Of a DNA stretch of 64,000 nucleotides, positions 32,035 to 40,715 are shown piece by piece. The position numbers and the translations under genes were made by a program. Below the pieces are notes generated by a model. That model worked only from the letters and a program-made list of their open reading frames with translations. It was not told the origin of the DNA and made no database searches. Position 1 is the stretch's first letter, and each line of letters begins with the position of its first letter. Source of the DNA: an uncultured Acidobacteriota bacterium (GTDB taxonomy: Bacteria; Acidobacteriota; Terriglobia; Terriglobales; Acidobacteriaceae); contig CAILAC010000013.1 in the NCBI GenBank assembly GCA_903832055.1, positions 1-64,000 of the forward strand, written 5' to 3'.

Positions 32035-32607
32035 TCAGGAATCGGTCTTGCGCACGAACTGCAGCGGCGGATTGCGGACTTCGGAGGCAAGAGTGCGCGG
32101 CTCAAAGAGTCCAGGCTGAGGCATTTTCGGCGTTCGCGCAGGAGCGCTCTGCGCAACAACGCCCAGTACGGTCAGCTCTTGAATTGCGCTGCGCGGTACA
32201 AGAACTCGTTGCGTATGAGAGCGGGTGTCGGGTGGCGTCAACATCAATCCGGCTCCTTCGATCAAAGTGCGGTCATTCGATGTCACGCCCTCCAGTTCAT
32301 CTCCGTCGCTGAGGGCAAGGCGCAGCCAGACACCGCTGATCCGGGGGCGGCCCGCAAAGCGGCGGCGCAACAGTCGCTCCGGTGCCTGGCTGTCTGCTCT
32401 TGAAGCAGCAGCCGACCATGCCTCCAGATCAAGTTCGCGCACATAACAAACCCATTTGACGCTGTTCCAGGGAATTTGCAGTAATTTGCCTGTAGTATGC
32501 AGTAGTTCCAGGTCCACACCATCTTCAGGGCCGTTGGGGGCGGCGTAGCCGGCGTACCATTCCCGGGTCAACTTGCGGACGATAACGGGTTTACGCGCGG
32601 CACTCAC
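32035..32607 (-). CDS. Conserved-looking cytoplasmic protein of unknown function
   Basis: A 190-residue protein starting with GTG, without signal peptide or membrane segment. Two regions have a similar beta-rich pattern: about 31-60 (VDLELLHTTGKLLQIPWNSV) and about 93-150 (WLRLALSDGDELEG, RVLVPRSAIQELTVLG). They may be two small barrel-like domains. I do not recognise a family with confidence. It is the next gene upstream of lpxD (26-bp gap) and diverges from the CCA-enzyme homologue. Confidence 0.65.
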   Translation of the reverse strand: MSAARKPVIVRKLTREWYAGYAAPNGPEDGVDLELLHTTGKLLQIPWNSVKWVCYVRELDLEAWSAAASRADSQAPERLLRRRFAGRPRISGVWLRLALSDGDELEGVTSNDRTLIEGAGLMLTPPDTRSHTQRVLVPRSAIQELTVLGVVAQSAPARTPKMPQPGLFEPRTLASEVRNPPLQFVRKTDS

Positions 32608-32782: not shown

Positions 32783-34660
32783 ATGCCAGACTATATTTAT
32801 TTGCTGGAGAATCGGCTGTCCGCCGTCCAGCAACATGCTTTGCGGACAGTCCGGGATCTCGCGCGTGAAGCGCAGATGACCGTTTTCCTTGCCGGCGACG
32901 CCGTGCGGGACCTTACCTGTGGCAGTCCAGTTCGTGAGCTTGAAGTTGTCGTTCATGGCAACGCGCTTGATTTGAAGGACGCAGTTGTGGCGGCTGGCGG
33001 CAGCGTCTGGGGCGAGCATGAGGCATCGCGGACGCTGTTTCTCTGCTTTCCTGGCAATGTGCGCCTTGACCTGAGCAGTGCGTGTCGCCCTGAATATTCC
33101 AAACCCGGTCAGCCTGTCTATCACTGGGCCAGTATCCAGGAAGATTTGCGTGCTCGCGACTTTACCGTAAATGCGATGGCGATTTCACTGAACGAGGGTT
33201 CGTACGGCCTCTTGATGGATCCTTCCAACGGTGTCGCGGACATTGAGGCCCGCCACCTGCGGCTGGTGTCCAATTACGGGTTCCTCGACAATCCGGCGCT
33301 GCTGATTCGAGCCACTCGCCTCAAGGCGCGGCTGGGATTTGAATTTGACGACCGCACCCAGACCCGCTACGAAAATGCAAAGGGTGATGAGGTCATTGAA
33401 CACCTCTCGGCCTTTGAACGTTCCCGGGAACTTGAGCAGATCGGTCACGAAGAAGAGCCCCTCAAGATTCTGGCTGCCCACGAGGCTGAAGGCTGGTCGC
33501 AACATCTATTTCCAGCTTGGACTGCGGCCAAGGCTGATGTGGAGAAACTGGAATCACTGCACGCGCTCTCGATTGAATTGCAGGTTCTCGGTGTACATCC
33601 CGATGTCTCTGCAGCGCAAATGCAGCTGCTGACAGCCAAGCTCTCGGCAAAGGAACTTGGCGAACTCAAGGCTCTGCTGCTGCGTCCCGGATTCGTGGAA
33701 GAGTGGAACAATCTGGACGCGAATGCCGCGACGTTTGCCAAAGTACTGCTCTCCAAAGAGAACGCTGCACCATCGGCAACCTACACGCTCTTTACGACCT
33801 ATCCCTCAGAAGCGGTGCTCTGGCTGGGCTTTACCAGCAAGCAGGCAGCAGTCAAAGAGAAGTTCCAGAACTTCCTCAAGGTTTGGCCGCTGATGCGCCA
33901 GAAGATTCCCTATGCGCTGATGCTCGAAATGCGCATTACGCCGGAGCTGCCCGGTTACCTGGACCTGGTCAAGACGATCTTCCTGCAGCTGATCGACGGT
34001 GGCCTCACCACCACCGAAGAGATCAAGGCGCTGCTTGAACCGCATTCGCCACCTGCGCCTCCACCGCCCGTGACCATCAAACGCACACGTGCCAAGAAGG
34101 GCGCAGAAGCGAAAGCGAAGGAGCGCCTCGTCGACGAAGATGACGAGGATGCAGACGATCTTGACGATGAAGACGAGGAAGAGGACGACGATCTTGACGG
34201 CCTTGATCTCGGCGGCGACGATCTGGACCTCGGTTTGGATGACGGGCGGGTGGTTGGTCCCGTCGTTGAAGGCGAAGAAGACGACGTTTTTGCCCGTAAT
34301 TCAGTTGGCGCAGAGGACCTGGATACCGAGCTTGATCCGGATGTGGAAGACGACGCACTGGGCGATTCGGACGATGAGTCGGATTTAGACTCCCTCGATG
34401 ACGAAGATGCTCCACGCAGAGGCAAAACAGCCAAGAAACGAATCGCTTCGCGTCGGCTAGCCTCGACGTTTGAGTCTGAATCGGACGACTTGACTGCTGC
34501 CGGCGCAGGTCTGCACGCACTTGCACGCGAGCTCGATCTGACTGAGCCCTCTGACCCCGCTGATCTCGACGAAGCCGATCCTATCTTTGAGACGGAAGAA
34601 CCCGCTGAGACCAAGGCACGACCGGCAAAAGCCAAGGCCGCGCCGAAGAAGAAGCGCTAA
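32783..34660 (+). CDS. CCA-adding enzyme/poly(A) polymerase homologue with altered active site and acidic tail
   Basis: A 625-residue protein. Residues about 1-240 match the class II CCA-adding/poly(A) polymerase head and neck: AGDAVRD in place of GGxVRD, ARDFTVNAMAI well conserved, and NPALLIRATRLKARLGFEF. The catalytic DxD that follows the VRD motif by about 14 residues is ExE here (RELEVVV), the second Gly of the GG motif is Asp, and the neck Arg of DPxR is missing. Residues about 440-550 are an extreme Asp/Glu tract and the end is Lys/Arg-rich. ATG 32783 begins the homologous part; the open frame upstream is not protein-like. It may bind RNA without adding nucleotides. Confidence 0.82.
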   Translation: MPDYIYLLENRLSAVQQHALRTVRDLAREAQMTVFLAGDAVRDLTCGSPVRELEVVVHGNALDLKDAVVAAGGSVWGEHEASRTLFLCFPGNVRLDLSSACRPEYSKPGQPVYHWASIQEDLRARDFTVNAMAISLNEGSYGLLMDPSNGVADIEARHLRLVSNYGFLDNPALLIRATRLKARLGFEFDDRTQTRYENAKGDEVIEHLSAFERSRELEQIGHEEEPLKILAAHEAEGWSQHLFPAWTAAKADVEKLESLHALSIELQVLGVHPDVSAAQMQLLTAKLSAKELGELKALLLRPGFVEEWNNLDANAATFAKVLLSKENAAPSATYTLFTTYPSEAVLWLGFTSKQAAVKEKFQNFLKVWPLMRQKIPYALMLEMRITPELPGYLDLVKTIFLQLIDGGLTTTEEIKALLEPHSPPAPPPPVTIKRTRAKKGAEAKAKERLVDEDDEDADDLDDEDEEEDDDLDGLDLGGDDLDLGLDDGRVVGPVVEGEEDDVFARNSVGAEDLDTELDPDVEDDALGDSDDESDLDSLDDEDAPRRGKTAKKRIASRRLASTFESESDDLTAAGAGLHALARELDLTEPSDPADLDEADPIFETEEPAETKARPAKAKAAPKKKR

Positions 34661-34826: not shown

Positions 34827-36284
34827 TTGAATCGAGCCGCTTACACACTTCTGACATTTCTCCGCGCCACTGGCTTTGCCGCCGTAACCGCCTGTCTGCT
34901 CGTAATTCCGGCCTGCGCCGCGGCTGAATCTCCAGCGCAAACTCCTTCGGCAACCTACGGGGCCGGCTATCGCTATGAAAGGGGCGGCTGGACATATCTT
35001 CATCTCCAGGGCACTCCGGCTGAGATTGGCTACCAGCACGGCTATCTGCTCGCTGCTGAAATTGAAGACACCTACCAGGTGCTCAAGCTTGAGAACACGC
35101 ACTCGACTCGCCGCAACTGGGCATTCTTCCGTCAGGCCAGCCAGAAAATGCTCTGGCCGCACATCGACCCTGAGTATCAGCAGGAACTTGAAGGCATCGC
35201 CAAAGGTGTGCAGGCCAAAGGCATCAAGCTGGACGTATGGGACATTGTCGCCATGAATGCTGGCATCGAACTGCCCGAGTACTACGTTCCCTGGCTCAAC
35301 AAGCGTGAACACGCCCTGAATGCCCCGCATCTTTCCGCACCAGGCAACTGCTCTGCCTTCATCGCCAATGGAAGCTACACCAAGGGCGGCAAGATCGTGA
35401 TTGCACACAACAACTGGTCAAGCTACGCCGACGGGGCTCGCTGGACCGTAATCTTCGATATCCAACCCGCCAAGGGCCATCACATGCTCATGGACGGGCT
35501 CCCTGGCGTGATTACCAGCCAGGACGATTTTGGCGTGACCGATACCGGCCTCATGGTCACGGAAACTACCATTACGCAATTCGTCGGCTGGAATCCTGAC
35601 GGCAAGCCTGAGTTTGTCCGTTCGCGCAAGGCTATGCAGTATGCCAGCAGCATCGATGAATTCGCGGCCATCATCAAGGAAGGCAACAACGGTGGCTACG
35701 CCAACGACTGGCTCATCGGCGACCGTAAAACGGGCGAAATCGGCTACCTGGAACTCGGCCTCAAAAACACTCCACTGTGGAAGGCGAGGGACGGCTACTT
35801 CGTCAGCTCAAACTTTGCCCGCGACCCCAAACTAATCGCCGACGAGACCGAGGGCTTTAACCCCAAGGATCTCTCCAGCTCACCCAATGCCCGCCGGGTC
35901 ACGGCAGAAAAAAGGATTGAGCAGGGCAAAGGACGCATCGACATCGAGATGGCTGAGCAGTTCCTCGCGGACCACGAAGACAGCTACACCGGCAAGGTTC
36001 AGGCAGATGAGCGCTCATTGTGTGGGCACATCGATGCAGATCCGCGCGGAGTCCCGGTCTGGGACCTGGAACCATACAACCCGTTTGGGGCGGTTACCGG
36101 GAAAGTTGCTGACTCTGATACGGCAGGGAAGCTGGCGCTGGTTGCCCACGCTGGGCACCCCTGCGGAGAAGACTTCCTGGCTGCACCCTTCCTGAAAGCG
36201 CATCCGGAATACGAGTACTTGAAACCGATTCTGAAGGATATGAAATCTGGCCCCTGGACAAAGTTTGAGTCCGGAGGGAAATAG
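34827..36284 (+). CDS. C45-family autoproteolytic acyltransferase/hydrolase (Ntn fold), exported
   Basis: A 485-residue protein with a signal peptide (about 1-35, ending PACAAAE). The mature part begins with GTPAEIGYQHGYLLA, typical of the phospholipase-B-like/C45 branch of Ntn hydrolases. Cys175 in GNCSAF is the expected autoprocessing site and new N-terminal nucleophile. AHNNWSSY and the following DIQP, GLPGVI and TDTGLMVTETT segments fit the family. Substrates are probably amides or acyl groups of lipids or peptides; the exact one is unknown. Translation starts at TTG with GGAGGG ten bases upstream. Confidence 0.82.
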   Translation: MNRAAYTLLTFLRATGFAAVTACLLVIPACAAAESPAQTPSATYGAGYRYERGGWTYLHLQGTPAEIGYQHGYLLAAEIEDTYQVLKLENTHSTRRNWAFFRQASQKMLWPHIDPEYQQELEGIAKGVQAKGIKLDVWDIVAMNAGIELPEYYVPWLNKREHALNAPHLSAPGNCSAFIANGSYTKGGKIVIAHNNWSSYADGARWTVIFDIQPAKGHHMLMDGLPGVITSQDDFGVTDTGLMVTETTITQFVGWNPDGKPEFVRSRKAMQYASSIDEFAAIIKEGNNGGYANDWLIGDRKTGEIGYLELGLKNTPLWKARDGYFVSSNFARDPKLIADETEGFNPKDLSSSPNARRVTAEKRIEQGKGRIDIEMAEQFLADHEDSYTGKVQADERSLCGHIDADPRGVPVWDLEPYNPFGAVTGKVADSDTAGKLALVAHAGHPCGEDFLAAPFLKAHPEYEYLKPILKDMKSGPWTKFESGGK

Positions 36285-37193: not shown

Positions 37194-40100
37194 ATGGCCG
37201 AGTTTACCCACCTTCATCTGCACACGGATTACTCCCTCCTCGATGGCGCCTGCGACGTAGACAAACTCGTCGATCGCGTCGCGTCTATCGGCCAGAAGTC
37301 GGTCGCGATGACCGATCACGGCAACATTTACGGGGCCGTACATTTCTTTGACGCTGCCAAAAAGAAAGGCATCAAGCCGATCCTTGGTTGCGAACTCTAC
37401 GTATGCAAAAAGGAAGACCACCGAGGCGACCCGAGCGGCGATAAATATAACCATTTATTGGTGTTGGCTGAAAACGAAGAGGGTTACCGCAACCTGATTC
37501 GCATTACATCCGAGGCTTCAGTACATGGCTTCTACAAGAAGCCGCGCATCAGCAAGCAGTACCTCGCCAGCCATGCTAAGGGTCTCATCGGATTCTCCGG
37601 CTGCCTCTCTGGCGAGTTCAGCGAGCATCTGCTCAAGGGCGACTATGCGGCGGCACGCGCCTCGGCTCTCCAGTATCAGGATATTTTTGGCCGTGGGAAC
37701 TTCTTCCTCGAGATTCAGGATCAGGGCTTGGAGATGGAGAAGCGCATCCACTCCGACATGTTCAAGATCGAGCGGGAACTGGACATTCCGCTGGTTGTCA
37801 CAAACGATTCCCACTACCTCTGTGAAGACGACCACAGCGCTCACGACACGATGCTCTGTGTGCAGACGGGGTCAAAGGTCCAGGACAAGGATCGTTTTCG
37901 CTTTGACGGCGACCAGTTCTTCGTCAAGAGCGCCGACCAGATGGCGCAGCTATTCCCTGACCGGCTCGACATGCTGCAGCGCACACAGGCGATCGCCGAG
38001 CGTTGCAATCTCAAGCTGAACAAGGTCGATAACCCCTTTCCGGAGTTTCCTATCCCGGACGGACATACCCTCGACAGCTACTTTGAAGAGATTTGCCGCG
38101 AAGGCTACAAGAAGCGTCTGGCGACCGGCATCCAGCACCTGCAATCCCGGGGGCAGTTGCGCTACCCGCTCCATGAGTACGAAGCCCGCCTCGAACGCGA
38201 AATCGGCATCATCAAGCAGATGAAGTACGTTGGCTACTTCCTCATTGTCTGGGACTTCATCCGCTATGCGCGCGAAAAAAGCATTCCGGTCGGGCCCGGC
38301 CGTGGCTCTGCCGCCGGCTCCATGGTTGCTTATGTCATGGAGATTACCAACGTTGACCCGATTCAGAACGCGCTGCTCTTTGAACGCTTCCTGAATCCTG
38401 AGCGTGTGTCCATGCCCGATATCGACGTTGATTTCTGCATGAACCGCCGCAGTGAAGTGATCGACTACGTCACGCGCAAGTACGGCCGCGAGCAGGTGGC
38501 CCAGATCATCACGTTCAACACCATGGCGGCCAAGGCGGCAATCAAAGACTGCGGTCGGGCTATGGACATGCCCTACGGCGATGTGGACCGCATCGCCAAG
38601 CTCATCCCGGCCACCATCGGCATCACCATCGACGCCGCTCTTGAAGAGCAGCCGGAGCTGCGCAAGGTCTATGACTCCGACCCGACGATCCGTGAGCTGA
38701 TCGACACGGCGAAAAAGCTGGAAGGCCTCGTTCGCGGCTCTGGCGTGCATGCCGCCGGCGTAGTCATTGCGCCGCGTGCGCTCACCGAACTGGTGCCCAT
38801 CGTCAAGACGAAAAACAATGAAATCGTCACCGCCTATGACATGAAAGCCATTGAGAAGATGGGCCTGCTCAAGATGGACTTCCTTGGCTTGACGACGCTG
38901 ACCGTCATCAGCGACGCGTTGAAACTGATTAAGAAGAATCGTGGCGTTGTCCTTGATATCGAAACCATCGAGCTGGATGACAAGGCCACCTACGAAAAGA
39001 TCTTCCACCGGGCATTCACTTCCGGCGTATTCCAGTTTGAATCGGGTGGCATGCGCGACGTGCTGCGCCGTTACAAGCCTGAGACCATTGAAGACCTGAC
39101 GGCGCTCAACGCCCTTTACCGGCCCGGTCCGATTCAGGGTGGAATGATCGACGACTTTATCGAACGCAAGTGGGGCCGCCGGAAGGTTGAATACACACTG
39201 CCCCAGCTCGAAGGCCTGCTCAAGGAGACTCTCGGCGTCATCGTCTATCAAGAACAAGTGATGCAGATCGCCAACGGGCTGGCGAGCTATTCGCTGGGCG
39301 AAGCCGATATGCTGCGCCGTGCCATGGGTAAAAAAGACCCCGCTGAGATGGCCAAGCAACGGAATCGATTCATGGAGGGTGCGGCTGGCCTTGGGCTGCC
39401 GAAAGATCCTGCCGGGGAAATCTTTGACCAGATGGAGAAGTTCGCCGGCTACGGCTTTAACAAGTCGCACTCTGCCGCCTACGCCCTGCTTGCCTATCAG
39501 ACCGCCTACCTTAAGGCCCATTATCCTGTTGAGTTTATGGCGGCGCTGCTGTCTTCGGAAATCTCAAAGCCCGAGAATGTTGTCAAGTACATTCAGGAAT
39601 GCAAGGAAATGGACATCAGTGTTGAGCCACCCGATGTCCGGCTTTCCGGGGCGCACTTTACCCCCTCCGGCGAAGTTATCCGTTTTGGGCTGACAGCGAT
39701 CAAAAATGTCGGCGACAACGCCATTGAATCCATTCTGGCCGCCCGCACAGCCCTTGAGGCCGAGGGCAAGGCCCTCACGACTTTCTGGGATTTCTGCGAA
39801 AAAGTCGACCTGCGCCAGATGAACAAGCGCGTGCTTGAGTCGCTCATCAAGGCCGGCGCGCTTGATTCGATGGGTACACGCGCGCAGCTCGTAGCAGCAA
39901 TCGACAAGGCCATTGAGCGCGCGCAAAAGGCCCAGAAGGACTCAGAACTCGGCCAGCACGGACTTTTTGGCCTCTTCAACGAGGCGCCTGCCAAAGGCAG
40001 CAACCCTGACGCTCTGCCCAATATTCCAGACTGGGAAGAGAAGGACCGGCTCGCCGCCGAAAAGGAAGTGCTTGGCTTCTACGTCAGCGGGCATCCGCTC

Positions 40101-40715
40101 GACAAATACAAGGAGAAGCTGCGCAACCTGTCCAATGTGGTGACGACAGCGGCTGCACTCGAAATGAAACCGCCTGCAGCACCGCGCTGGGGCCAGCAAC
40201 GCGATCCCGGCGACGAAATCTCGATTGCTGGAGTCTTCGTTGGCATGCGCGCGGCCAAGAGCAAGCGCAACGACAAGATGTATGCCCAGGGCCATATTGA
40301 AGACTCCTACGGCAAGATCGAAGTAATCTGCTTTGCCAAGGACTACGAAAAGCTCTCTGAACAGCTCAAGACCGAGGCCGCAGTACTGGTGCGCGGTACG
40401 CTGATTGGCGAGGAGGAATCCTCACCGAAGCTAGCGATCAGCGGCCTGCAACCTCTTGACGACGTGCAGGTGCGCCTGCCCACGGCGATTCGCCTGCGGT
40501 TGAATCTCGACATTGCCAGCGAAGAGATGTTGGCCACGCTCAAAGACAAGATCGAAGCCGCCCCCGGCCCCGGCAAACTCATGATGCACCTGCAAAAGAA
40601 AGGCAGCTATGAAGTCATCCTAGAACCCGCCGGGATGAAAGTCGCTGCCGACCGCGGGTGGGTTGAGTCAGTCGAAGAGCTGCTGGGGCGTGGGGCTGTG
40701 CAAGTGCTGAGTTAG
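37194..40715 (+). CDS. dnaE: DNA polymerase III alpha subunit DnaE
   Basis: An 1173-residue replicative polymerase of the C-family, DnaE1 type. The N-terminal PHP domain begins HLHLHTDYSLLDGA and holds MTDHGN and other metal-site motifs. The palm carries the catalytic aspartates in PDIDVDF (about 406-412), preceded by GPGRGSAAGS. The helix-hairpin-helix region, an OB-fold (about 1000-1075, ISIAGVFVGMRAAKSK) and the C-terminal domain follow. Length is normal. It is the only gene in a possible unit with its own leader; no terminator was seen after it. Confidence 0.98.
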   Translation: MAEFTHLHLHTDYSLLDGACDVDKLVDRVASIGQKSVAMTDHGNIYGAVHFFDAAKKKGIKPILGCELYVCKKEDHRGDPSGDKYNHLLVLAENEEGYRNLIRITSEASVHGFYKKPRISKQYLASHAKGLIGFSGCLSGEFSEHLLKGDYAAARASALQYQDIFGRGNFFLEIQDQGLEMEKRIHSDMFKIERELDIPLVVTNDSHYLCEDDHSAHDTMLCVQTGSKVQDKDRFRFDGDQFFVKSADQMAQLFPDRLDMLQRTQAIAERCNLKLNKVDNPFPEFPIPDGHTLDSYFEEICREGYKKRLATGIQHLQSRGQLRYPLHEYEARLEREIGIIKQMKYVGYFLIVWDFIRYAREKSIPVGPGRGSAAGSMVAYVMEITNVDPIQNALLFERFLNPERVSMPDIDVDFCMNRRSEVIDYVTRKYGREQVAQIITFNTMAAKAAIKDCGRAMDMPYGDVDRIAKLIPATIGITIDAALEEQPELRKVYDSDPTIRELIDTAKKLEGLVRGSGVHAAGVVIAPRALTELVPIVKTKNNEIVTAYDMKAIEKMGLLKMDFLGLTTLTVISDALKLIKKNRGVVLDIETIELDDKATYEKIFHRAFTSGVFQFESGGMRDVLRRYKPETIEDLTALNALYRPGPIQGGMIDDFIERKWGRRKVEYTLPQLEGLLKETLGVIVYQEQVMQIANGLASYSLGEADMLRRAMGKKDPAEMAKQRNRFMEGAAGLGLPKDPAGEIFDQMEKFAGYGFNKSHSAAYALLAYQTAYLKAHYPVEFMAALLSSEISKPENVVKYIQECKEMDISVEPPDVRLSGAHFTPSGEVIRFGLTAIKNVGDNAIESILAARTALEAEGKALTTFWDFCEKVDLRQMNKRVLESLIKAGALDSMGTRAQLVAAIDKAIERAQKAQKDSELGQHGLFGLFNEAPAKGSNPDALPNIPDWEEKDRLAAEKEVLGFYVSGHPLDKYKEKLRNLSNVVTTAAALEMKPPAAPRWGQQRDPGDEISIAGVFVGMRAAKSKRNDKMYAQGHIEDSYGKIEVICFAKDYEKLSEQLKTEAAVLVRGTLIGEEESSPKLAISGLQPLDDVQVRLPTAIRLRLNLDIASEEMLATLKDKIEAAPGPGKLMMHLQKKGSYEVILEPAGMKVAADRGWVESVEELLGRGAVQVLS

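Follow-up and report, generated by a model that had tools for sequence, protein, structure and literature searches.

The closest described relatives of the protein considered here are the class II CCA-adding enzyme of T. maritima (structures 3h37-3h3a and 5hc9) and the A-adding enzyme of A. aeolicus (1vfg and the 4wby-4wc series). An excerpt of PMC3925840 gives D55, D57, and D99 as the catalytic carboxylates of the T. maritima CCA enzyme and E59, D61, and D110 as the site of the class I enzyme AFCCA; it also suggests a short loop between DxD and RRD as a hallmark of CC-adding enzymes. The EDxxR motif (motif D) is presented, in an excerpt of PMC7014341, as an amino-acid template for the incoming nucleotide. 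Among the Y-family DNA polymerases, ImuB is called catalytically dead in an excerpt of PMC6511836. Members of the tRNA nucleotidyltransferase fold are well known. A non-exhaustive search of the open-access literature returned nothing on the present protein, on Acidobacteriota orthologues of tRNA nucleotidyltransferases that have become catalytically dead, or on any orthologue group in which the catalytic site is lost repeatedly and fold, locus, and tail are retained.

The window, i.e., the whole stretch of 64,000 nucleotides that was analysed, comes from an uncultured Acidobacteriota bacterium (assembly GCA_903832055.1, contig CAILAC010000013.1, positions 1 to 64,000). Its forward strand carries an open reading frame that runs from an ATG at 32783 to a stop at 34660 (32783..34660) and encodes a 625-residue protein that resembles class II tRNA nucleotidyltransferases but whose active site is altered and whose tail is long and charged. 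Since the start MPDY is common to the homologues, M1 and D3 being invariant in all 27 aligned sequences, a longer start at a TTG (32573) is not supported by this comparison. A scan for promoters and terminators gave a result near the shuffled mean. PF01743, the PolyA_pol head, was the single Pfam domain in the 625 residues and scored 47.4 bits against a cut-off of 23.

Residues 1–430 were modelled by AlphaFold from 60 aligned sequences, and the mean pLDDT was 96.3. A Foldseek search with this model returned T. maritima 3h37 at near full length (E 6.1e-20). With VIA, the model matched 4wby (A. aeolicus) with a Z of 24.5 and an rmsd of 12.3 over 364 residues, and 3h38 (T. maritima), tied with it, with a Z of 24.2 and an rmsd of 16.1 over 403 residues. 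The whole-chain rmsd against most of the close structural relatives was large (10–17 Å), which would reflect different inter-domain angles. Because the model matched the T. maritima and A. aeolicus enzymes over nearly the whole chain, the class II tRNA nucleotidyltransferase fold is, as modelled, complete and more than the head alone: it comprises a head-neck-body-tail 'sea-horse' core of residues 1–425 (32783..34057). When solved structures were searched by sequence, the top matches were the T. maritima CCA-adding enzyme 3h37 (E 1.8e-31) and A. aeolicus 4wby/1vfg. The best NCBIfam model was that of the A-adding enzyme, NF041569, matched over model positions 453–711 of 880 only and with 96.6 bits against a cut-off of 1440. 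PF12627 (PolyA_pol_RNAbd) was not reported in the window protein or in the Terriglobia orthologues L159 and L038; it was reported in a second enzyme of the same genome, described below, and in relatives from other classes. With a Pfam score above the cut-off and the fold of the whole core, the protein is a member by descent of the class II tRNA nucleotidyltransferase/PolyA_pol superfamily.

The alignment to T. maritima 3h37 was ungapped around the active site and placed E52 and E54 on D55 and D57, and D96 on D99. Where the catalytic DxD is expected, the window protein has ELE (residues 52–54; 32936..32944, on the forward strand like every other feature of this gene), while the third catalytic carboxylate position, D96 (33068..33070), is still acidic. 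The GG of the GGxVRD motif is GD, in GDAVRD (residues 38–43; 32894..32911), G39 being replaced by Asp. The expected RRDF is ARDF (33152..33163), with R124 replaced by Ala and with R125 and D126 kept, and the nucleotide-selecting EDxxR is DNPAL (33287..33301), its Asp replaced by Asn and its Arg by Leu. Of the features expected of a competent enzyme, the protein has the third carboxylate and lacks both DxD and EDxxR. No DxD appeared on realignment to 3h37. A first-pass annotation of this DNA had read from the letters alone an ExE in place of the metal-binding DxD, a GD in place of GG and the loss of a neck arginine on a conserved family fold; the statements on DxD, GG and the neck arginine were all borne out.

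In a maximum-likelihood tree (quick search), the altered proteins formed one clade of 26 rows with an SH-aLRT of 100, lying among DxD-bearing Acidobacteriaceae. Residue 54 was Glu in 26/26. Residue 52 was Glu in 18, Asp in seven and Gly in one, so that ExE in the strict sense was present in 18/26; residue 96 was Asp in 18 and Glu in eight, and residue 39 was Asp in 24/26. R125 and D126 were kept in 26/26, and R124 and R173 (the Arg of EDxxR) were each kept in 9/26. Since the second residue of the motif is Glu in all 26 members and in two more sequences, the altered site is, by this alignment, neither a chance event nor a sequencing slip. One member (L007, from genome G001) has GxE, its first carboxylate gone; it represents one genome and may be a sequence error.

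For comparison we used the 48 Terriglobia rows outside two altered clades, leaving out L168 and also L054, whose N terminus is cut and which was left out of the trees and counts as well. G39, D52, and D54 were present in 48/48 of these rows (D52 and D54 partly by construction), and the third position was Glu in 39, Ser in eight and Gln in one. G39 was also present in 17/17 outgroup rows. Fifty-seven positions were conserved at 90% or more in the DxD rows, and six of these fell below 60% in the clade (39, 52, 54, 124, 173, and 226). Five of the six are motif residues, catalytic or nucleotide-binding, as are 13 of the 57 overall; the hypergeometric p was 0.0016 with a shorter motif list, drawn up after the lost positions had been seen, and 0.0036 with a longer and earlier list, both values being descriptive, for a test that treats positions as independent and ignores relatedness.

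By a simple Nei-Gojobori estimate, in which many pairs were saturated and comparisons between groups are rough, the median dN/dS of the core was 0.117 for the window's genus (12 of its 14 rows; 35 usable pairs, 31 of 66 saturated), 0.094 in 12 rows of the other subclade (48 usable, 18 saturated), 0.196 in 11 DxD sisters (29 usable, 26 saturated), and 0.398 in 11 rows of another family of the same order, f2 (52 usable, three saturated). The head was the most constrained segment in both altered subclades (medians 0.09 and 0.084) and in the DxD sisters too. On these estimates, the protein of the window's clade is maintained under purifying selection; together with the loss of catalytic residues, such selection is what a pseudoenzyme would show.

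In family f2, residues 52, 96, and 126 were all replaced in 15/15 rows (L038-L040, L042, L043, L046, L047, L049-L053, L056, L164, and L170), two of which duplicate other rows along most of the core. Residue 52 was Thr, His, Ser, Phe, Val, or Leu, residue 96 was Arg, and residue 126 was Gly; residue 54 was still Asp in 11/15. Constraint may be weaker in this family, with a dN/dS of about 0.4. The loss test gave four motif residues among eight lost (p 0.07, or 0.12 with the longer list), and the enrichment was not clear.

Among distinct Terriglobia rows, 50 of 183 had no DxD, against 11 of 100 further class-sample sequences taken from the listed matches; the latter is the fairer rate of loss, because the window's genus and f2 were oversampled in the former. 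In 49 of the 183, DxD was kept and the third position was non-acidic, most often Ser, so that many DxD-bearing copies may be impaired as well. When the DxD label was mapped on a tree of 193 rows (motif columns excluded, quick search, simple model), the fewest changes required were 10, and outgroup rooting gave 10 maximal clades without DxD on the assumption that DxD is never regained; family f2 is among these clades, and seven of them are single tips, so that sequence error is possible in some. Descriptions of tRNA nucleotidyltransferases present their catalytic motifs as highly conserved; in the present gene, by this count, DxD was lost in about ten lineages.

A PF01743 search of the window's own genome found two genes, the window gene and one on contig C9. 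The latter encodes an enzyme of 490 residues with PolyA_pol, RNA-binding, and HD domains and with all the motifs present, and its closest match was the CCA-adding enzyme 1miv of B. stearothermophilus (E 4.9e-48). A second, canonical CCA enzyme, the presence of which the first-pass annotation had left as a question, is thus encoded in the same genome. Within the genus, 13 of 15 genomes had both PF01743 genes; G002 and G014, both drafts, had one each. The canonical paralogue was read in 41 of the 53 genomes counted as having one, and it kept GG, DxD, RRD, and EDxxR in 41/41, with Glu at the third position in 38 and Ala in three. Because the canonical paralogue is intact in all 41, the erosion of the active site is special to the window-type gene, the paralogue being spared.

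The genome of the window gave 45 tRNA matches, and ARAGORN read 30 distinct tRNA genes in 30 loci. Since CCA is encoded in 30/30, the tRNA genes read would leave CCA addition no task beyond repair. In ten relatives, seven with DxD and three without, CCA was likewise encoded in 36/36 tRNA genes. The presence of the active site therefore does not track CCA encoding, and the idea that DxD is kept where tRNA genes lack CCA was ruled out. Also ruled out was a split pair of CC-adding and A-adding enzymes with the window protein as the needed A-adding partner. The C9 enzyme is not shortened relative to 1miv between DxD and RRD, an alignment that is suggestive, though no proof, as to its product, and there is no terminal A to add de novo, because all the tRNA genes read encode CCA.

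Matches of any kind were found in 58 of 61 genomes (the window's own included), some of them to the canonical paralogue only, and 54/61 had a strong orthologue, with an E of 2.4e-42 or lower and in a few cases partial. In a class sample of 200 Terriglobia genomes, searched at a threshold of E 1e-12, 168 gave a match and 32 gave none; among 20 listed of these 32 match-free genomes, 18 belong to families f4, f9, and f10. One copy (L150), from a contig titled Rhodanobacteraceae, groups with Granulicella, and the genome bin is probably mislabelled or mixed.

The gene order lpxD, DUF6982, window-type gene, dnaE, accA recurs in Terriglobia. Around 40 orthologues, several of them on loci cut by contig ends, the DUF6982 gene was found at 30, lpxD at 28, dnaE at 24, and accA at 16. 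In the window, the DUF6982 gene (PF22478) is the divergent neighbour, at 32035..32607 on the reverse strand, and dnaE (DNA polymerase III alpha) lies downstream at 37194..40715 on the forward strand. A tRNA scan of the 40 orthologue neighbourhoods found none. The DUF6982 gene, divergent at 30/40 loci, is perhaps linked to the window-type gene. Between the window gene and dnaE lies a C45-family acyltransferase/hydrolase gene (34827-36284, forward strand), which had no best match among 40 related loci and looks like a local insertion.

In other classes of Acidobacteriota, GG, DxD, the third Asp, RRD, and EDxxR were kept in 20/20 homologues, drawn from the better-scoring matches. Within the stretch around these homologues, accA (51% identity or more) was present in 5/20 and dnaE in 1/20, so that 6/20 had one or the other. 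Five of the other-class homologues were scanned for domains: DHH-type and CBS domains preceded the rest of the protein in three (872 to 912 residues) and were absent from two (449 and 513 residues). Two long other-class proteins (L213 and L229) matched NF041569 end to end, yet scored 575.5 and 590.2, below the cut-off of 1440. The DHH-CBS part of the longer relatives is absent from the Terriglobia protein. The simplest reading of these sequences would be one vertically inherited locus.

The tail of the window protein (residues 426–625) contains 67 Asp or Glu and 27 Lys or Arg. A Pro-rich hinge is followed by a short basic stretch (PPPPVTIKRTRAKK; 34058..34099), and then come an acidic tract (residues 450–542; 34130..34408) and a Lys-rich C-terminal end (34607..34657), much as the acidic tract and Lys-rich end of a 200-residue tail had been described. 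Tails of at least 50 residues were present in 72 of 84 rows: 58/58 of the window's family, 5/11 of f2, and 9/15 of other orders or families. These orthologue tails are mostly basic and rich in Lys, Ala, and Pro, with or without DxD. An acidic tract was found in 26/26 members of the clade (excess of at least 17 per 40 residues) and in 6/15 DxD sister rows (at least 18). Within the 14 rows of the window's subclade, the common tail segments were VFAR, inside the acidic tract (10 rows), and DPADLD (four rows). The tail as a mark of the altered clade was ruled out, basic tails being present on DxD proteins and an acidic excess in 6/15 DxD sisters. It had been asked of the homologues whether ExE and tail are conserved; the altered site proved common to the 26-row clade, and the tail proved not to be tied to ExE.

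We also scanned 1209 open reading frames of at least 150 residues from the window and the 40 loci, these being stop-to-stop frames on both strands, many of which are not genes. A tail rich in Lys, Ala, and Pro was found in 26, and 26/26 were the window-type gene; the window protein's own tail failed this filter. A general habit of such tails near the locus was thereby ruled out, and the basic tail is special to the window-type gene within its neighbourhood.

We suggest that the window protein is probably a pseudo-nucleotidyltransferase of a recurrent kind, which soil Acidobacteriota would retain as an RNA binder or scaffold, with the canonical enzyme doing the usual job. It belongs to a branch of the class II tRNA nucleotidyltransferases that is, on the simplest reading, vertically inherited and that lies nearest to the A-adding/T. 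maritima type. In Terriglobia the protein usually ends in a flexible charged tail. In the window's clade, sequence and model show that the residues which bind metal and select the nucleotide have been replaced on a retained fold; polymerisation would have been lost. The sea-horse body may still grip tRNA-like RNA ends, as the fold and the tRNA complexes of relatives (5hc9, 1vfg, and 4wc2) suggest, and the tail may engage RNA or protein partners through its charges, with the basic part of the tail perhaps shielded by the acidic tract. CCA repair would be left to the canonical paralogue. Since the paralogue would handle this repair, catalysis would be dispensable in the window-type gene, and the site could hence have decayed repeatedly in different lineages. 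Repeated and differently placed losses beside an intact paralogue suggest that the useful function of the family needs no catalysis. The pseudo-nucleotidyltransferase reading was already one of the two offered by the first-pass annotation, the other being an enzyme with changed metal use; it is strengthened by catalytic losses under purifying selection, by the second enzyme, and by the ten clades without DxD, and it loses the supposed link between tail and ExE.

The residues of the clade itself speak against a dead site. Residue 52 is Asp or Glu in 25/26, residue 54 is Glu in 26/26, and residue 96 is Asp or Glu in 26/26, whereas more drift, of the kind seen in f2, would be expected if the site were simply dead. 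The retention of R125 and D126 in 26/26 points the same way. Because the acidic carboxylate positions are kept, there is room for a changed metal site, and the protein might still be active, with its metal site rebuilt from acidic residues (E52, E54, D96, and perhaps D39) and its use of metal, nucleotide, or acceptor changed. The new Asp39 in 24/26 and the strong constraint on the head would fit such an enzyme, and it is not without parallel: class I CCA enzymes use Glu-x-Asp plus Asp, and kanamycin nucleotidyltransferase uses Asp-x-Glu. However, the Arg of EDxxR and R124 were each lost in 17/26, one member has GxE, and G39D alters the GG motif. Moreover, none of the 41 canonical copies, 17 outgroup rows, and 20 other-class members examined showed ExE. 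We regard a rebuilt, active site as unlikely. A bolder proposal, to which we give somewhat less credence, is that the site (E-x-E with D96 and D39, the template Arg mostly gone in the clade) was rebuilt to catalyse a different, metal-dependent reaction, steered by the charged tail, whose substrate would be RNA ends or protein; nucleotide transfer to protein and 3'-end hydrolysis are examples.

It is quite improbable that ExE works well enough here for the protein to be an ordinary A-adding or CCA-repair enzyme. The fold is the same, the third carboxylate is present, and the closest NCBIfam model is an A-adding enzyme, but the score on that model is 96.6 against 1440, GG, DxD, RRD, and EDxxR are changed together, and a canonical enzyme with all the motifs is present. 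A functionless, decaying remnant (a pseudogene in progress) is scarcely credible: catalytic residues were indeed lost in several lineages and dN/dS is higher in f2 (0.398), but the frames are long and without internal stops, dN/dS in the window's clade is about 0.1, and tail and gene order recur.

With DxD lost repeatedly from one orthologous gene whose fold, and often gene order, persist across the class, the intact paralogue in the same cells serves as a control, and the family offers a natural experiment on the non-catalytic roles of the fold. It is also a warning that a domain match alone should not label such genes CCA enzymes or poly(A) polymerases.

With ImuB, the window protein would share the condition of a catalytically dead member retained for a non-catalytic role; the likeness is one of analogy only, fold and role being different. 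It has the head domain family PF01743 in common with the canonical CCA/PcnB-type enzyme of the same genome (contig C9, 490 residues), which, unlike it, has DxD, EDxxR, PF12627, and an HD domain and belongs to a different subfamily. As regards the A-adding enzyme of A. aeolicus, NF041569 is the best family model and 4wby a structural match, but the window protein is without the DHH-CBS part, DxD, and EDxxR of that type and scores far under the model cut-off. Like the class II CCA-adding enzyme of T. maritima, it has the whole sea-horse fold (24% identity, residues 1–422 aligned to 3h38); unlike that enzyme, it has E52 and E54 for D55 and D57, has lost EDxxR, and has gained a charged tail of 200 residues.
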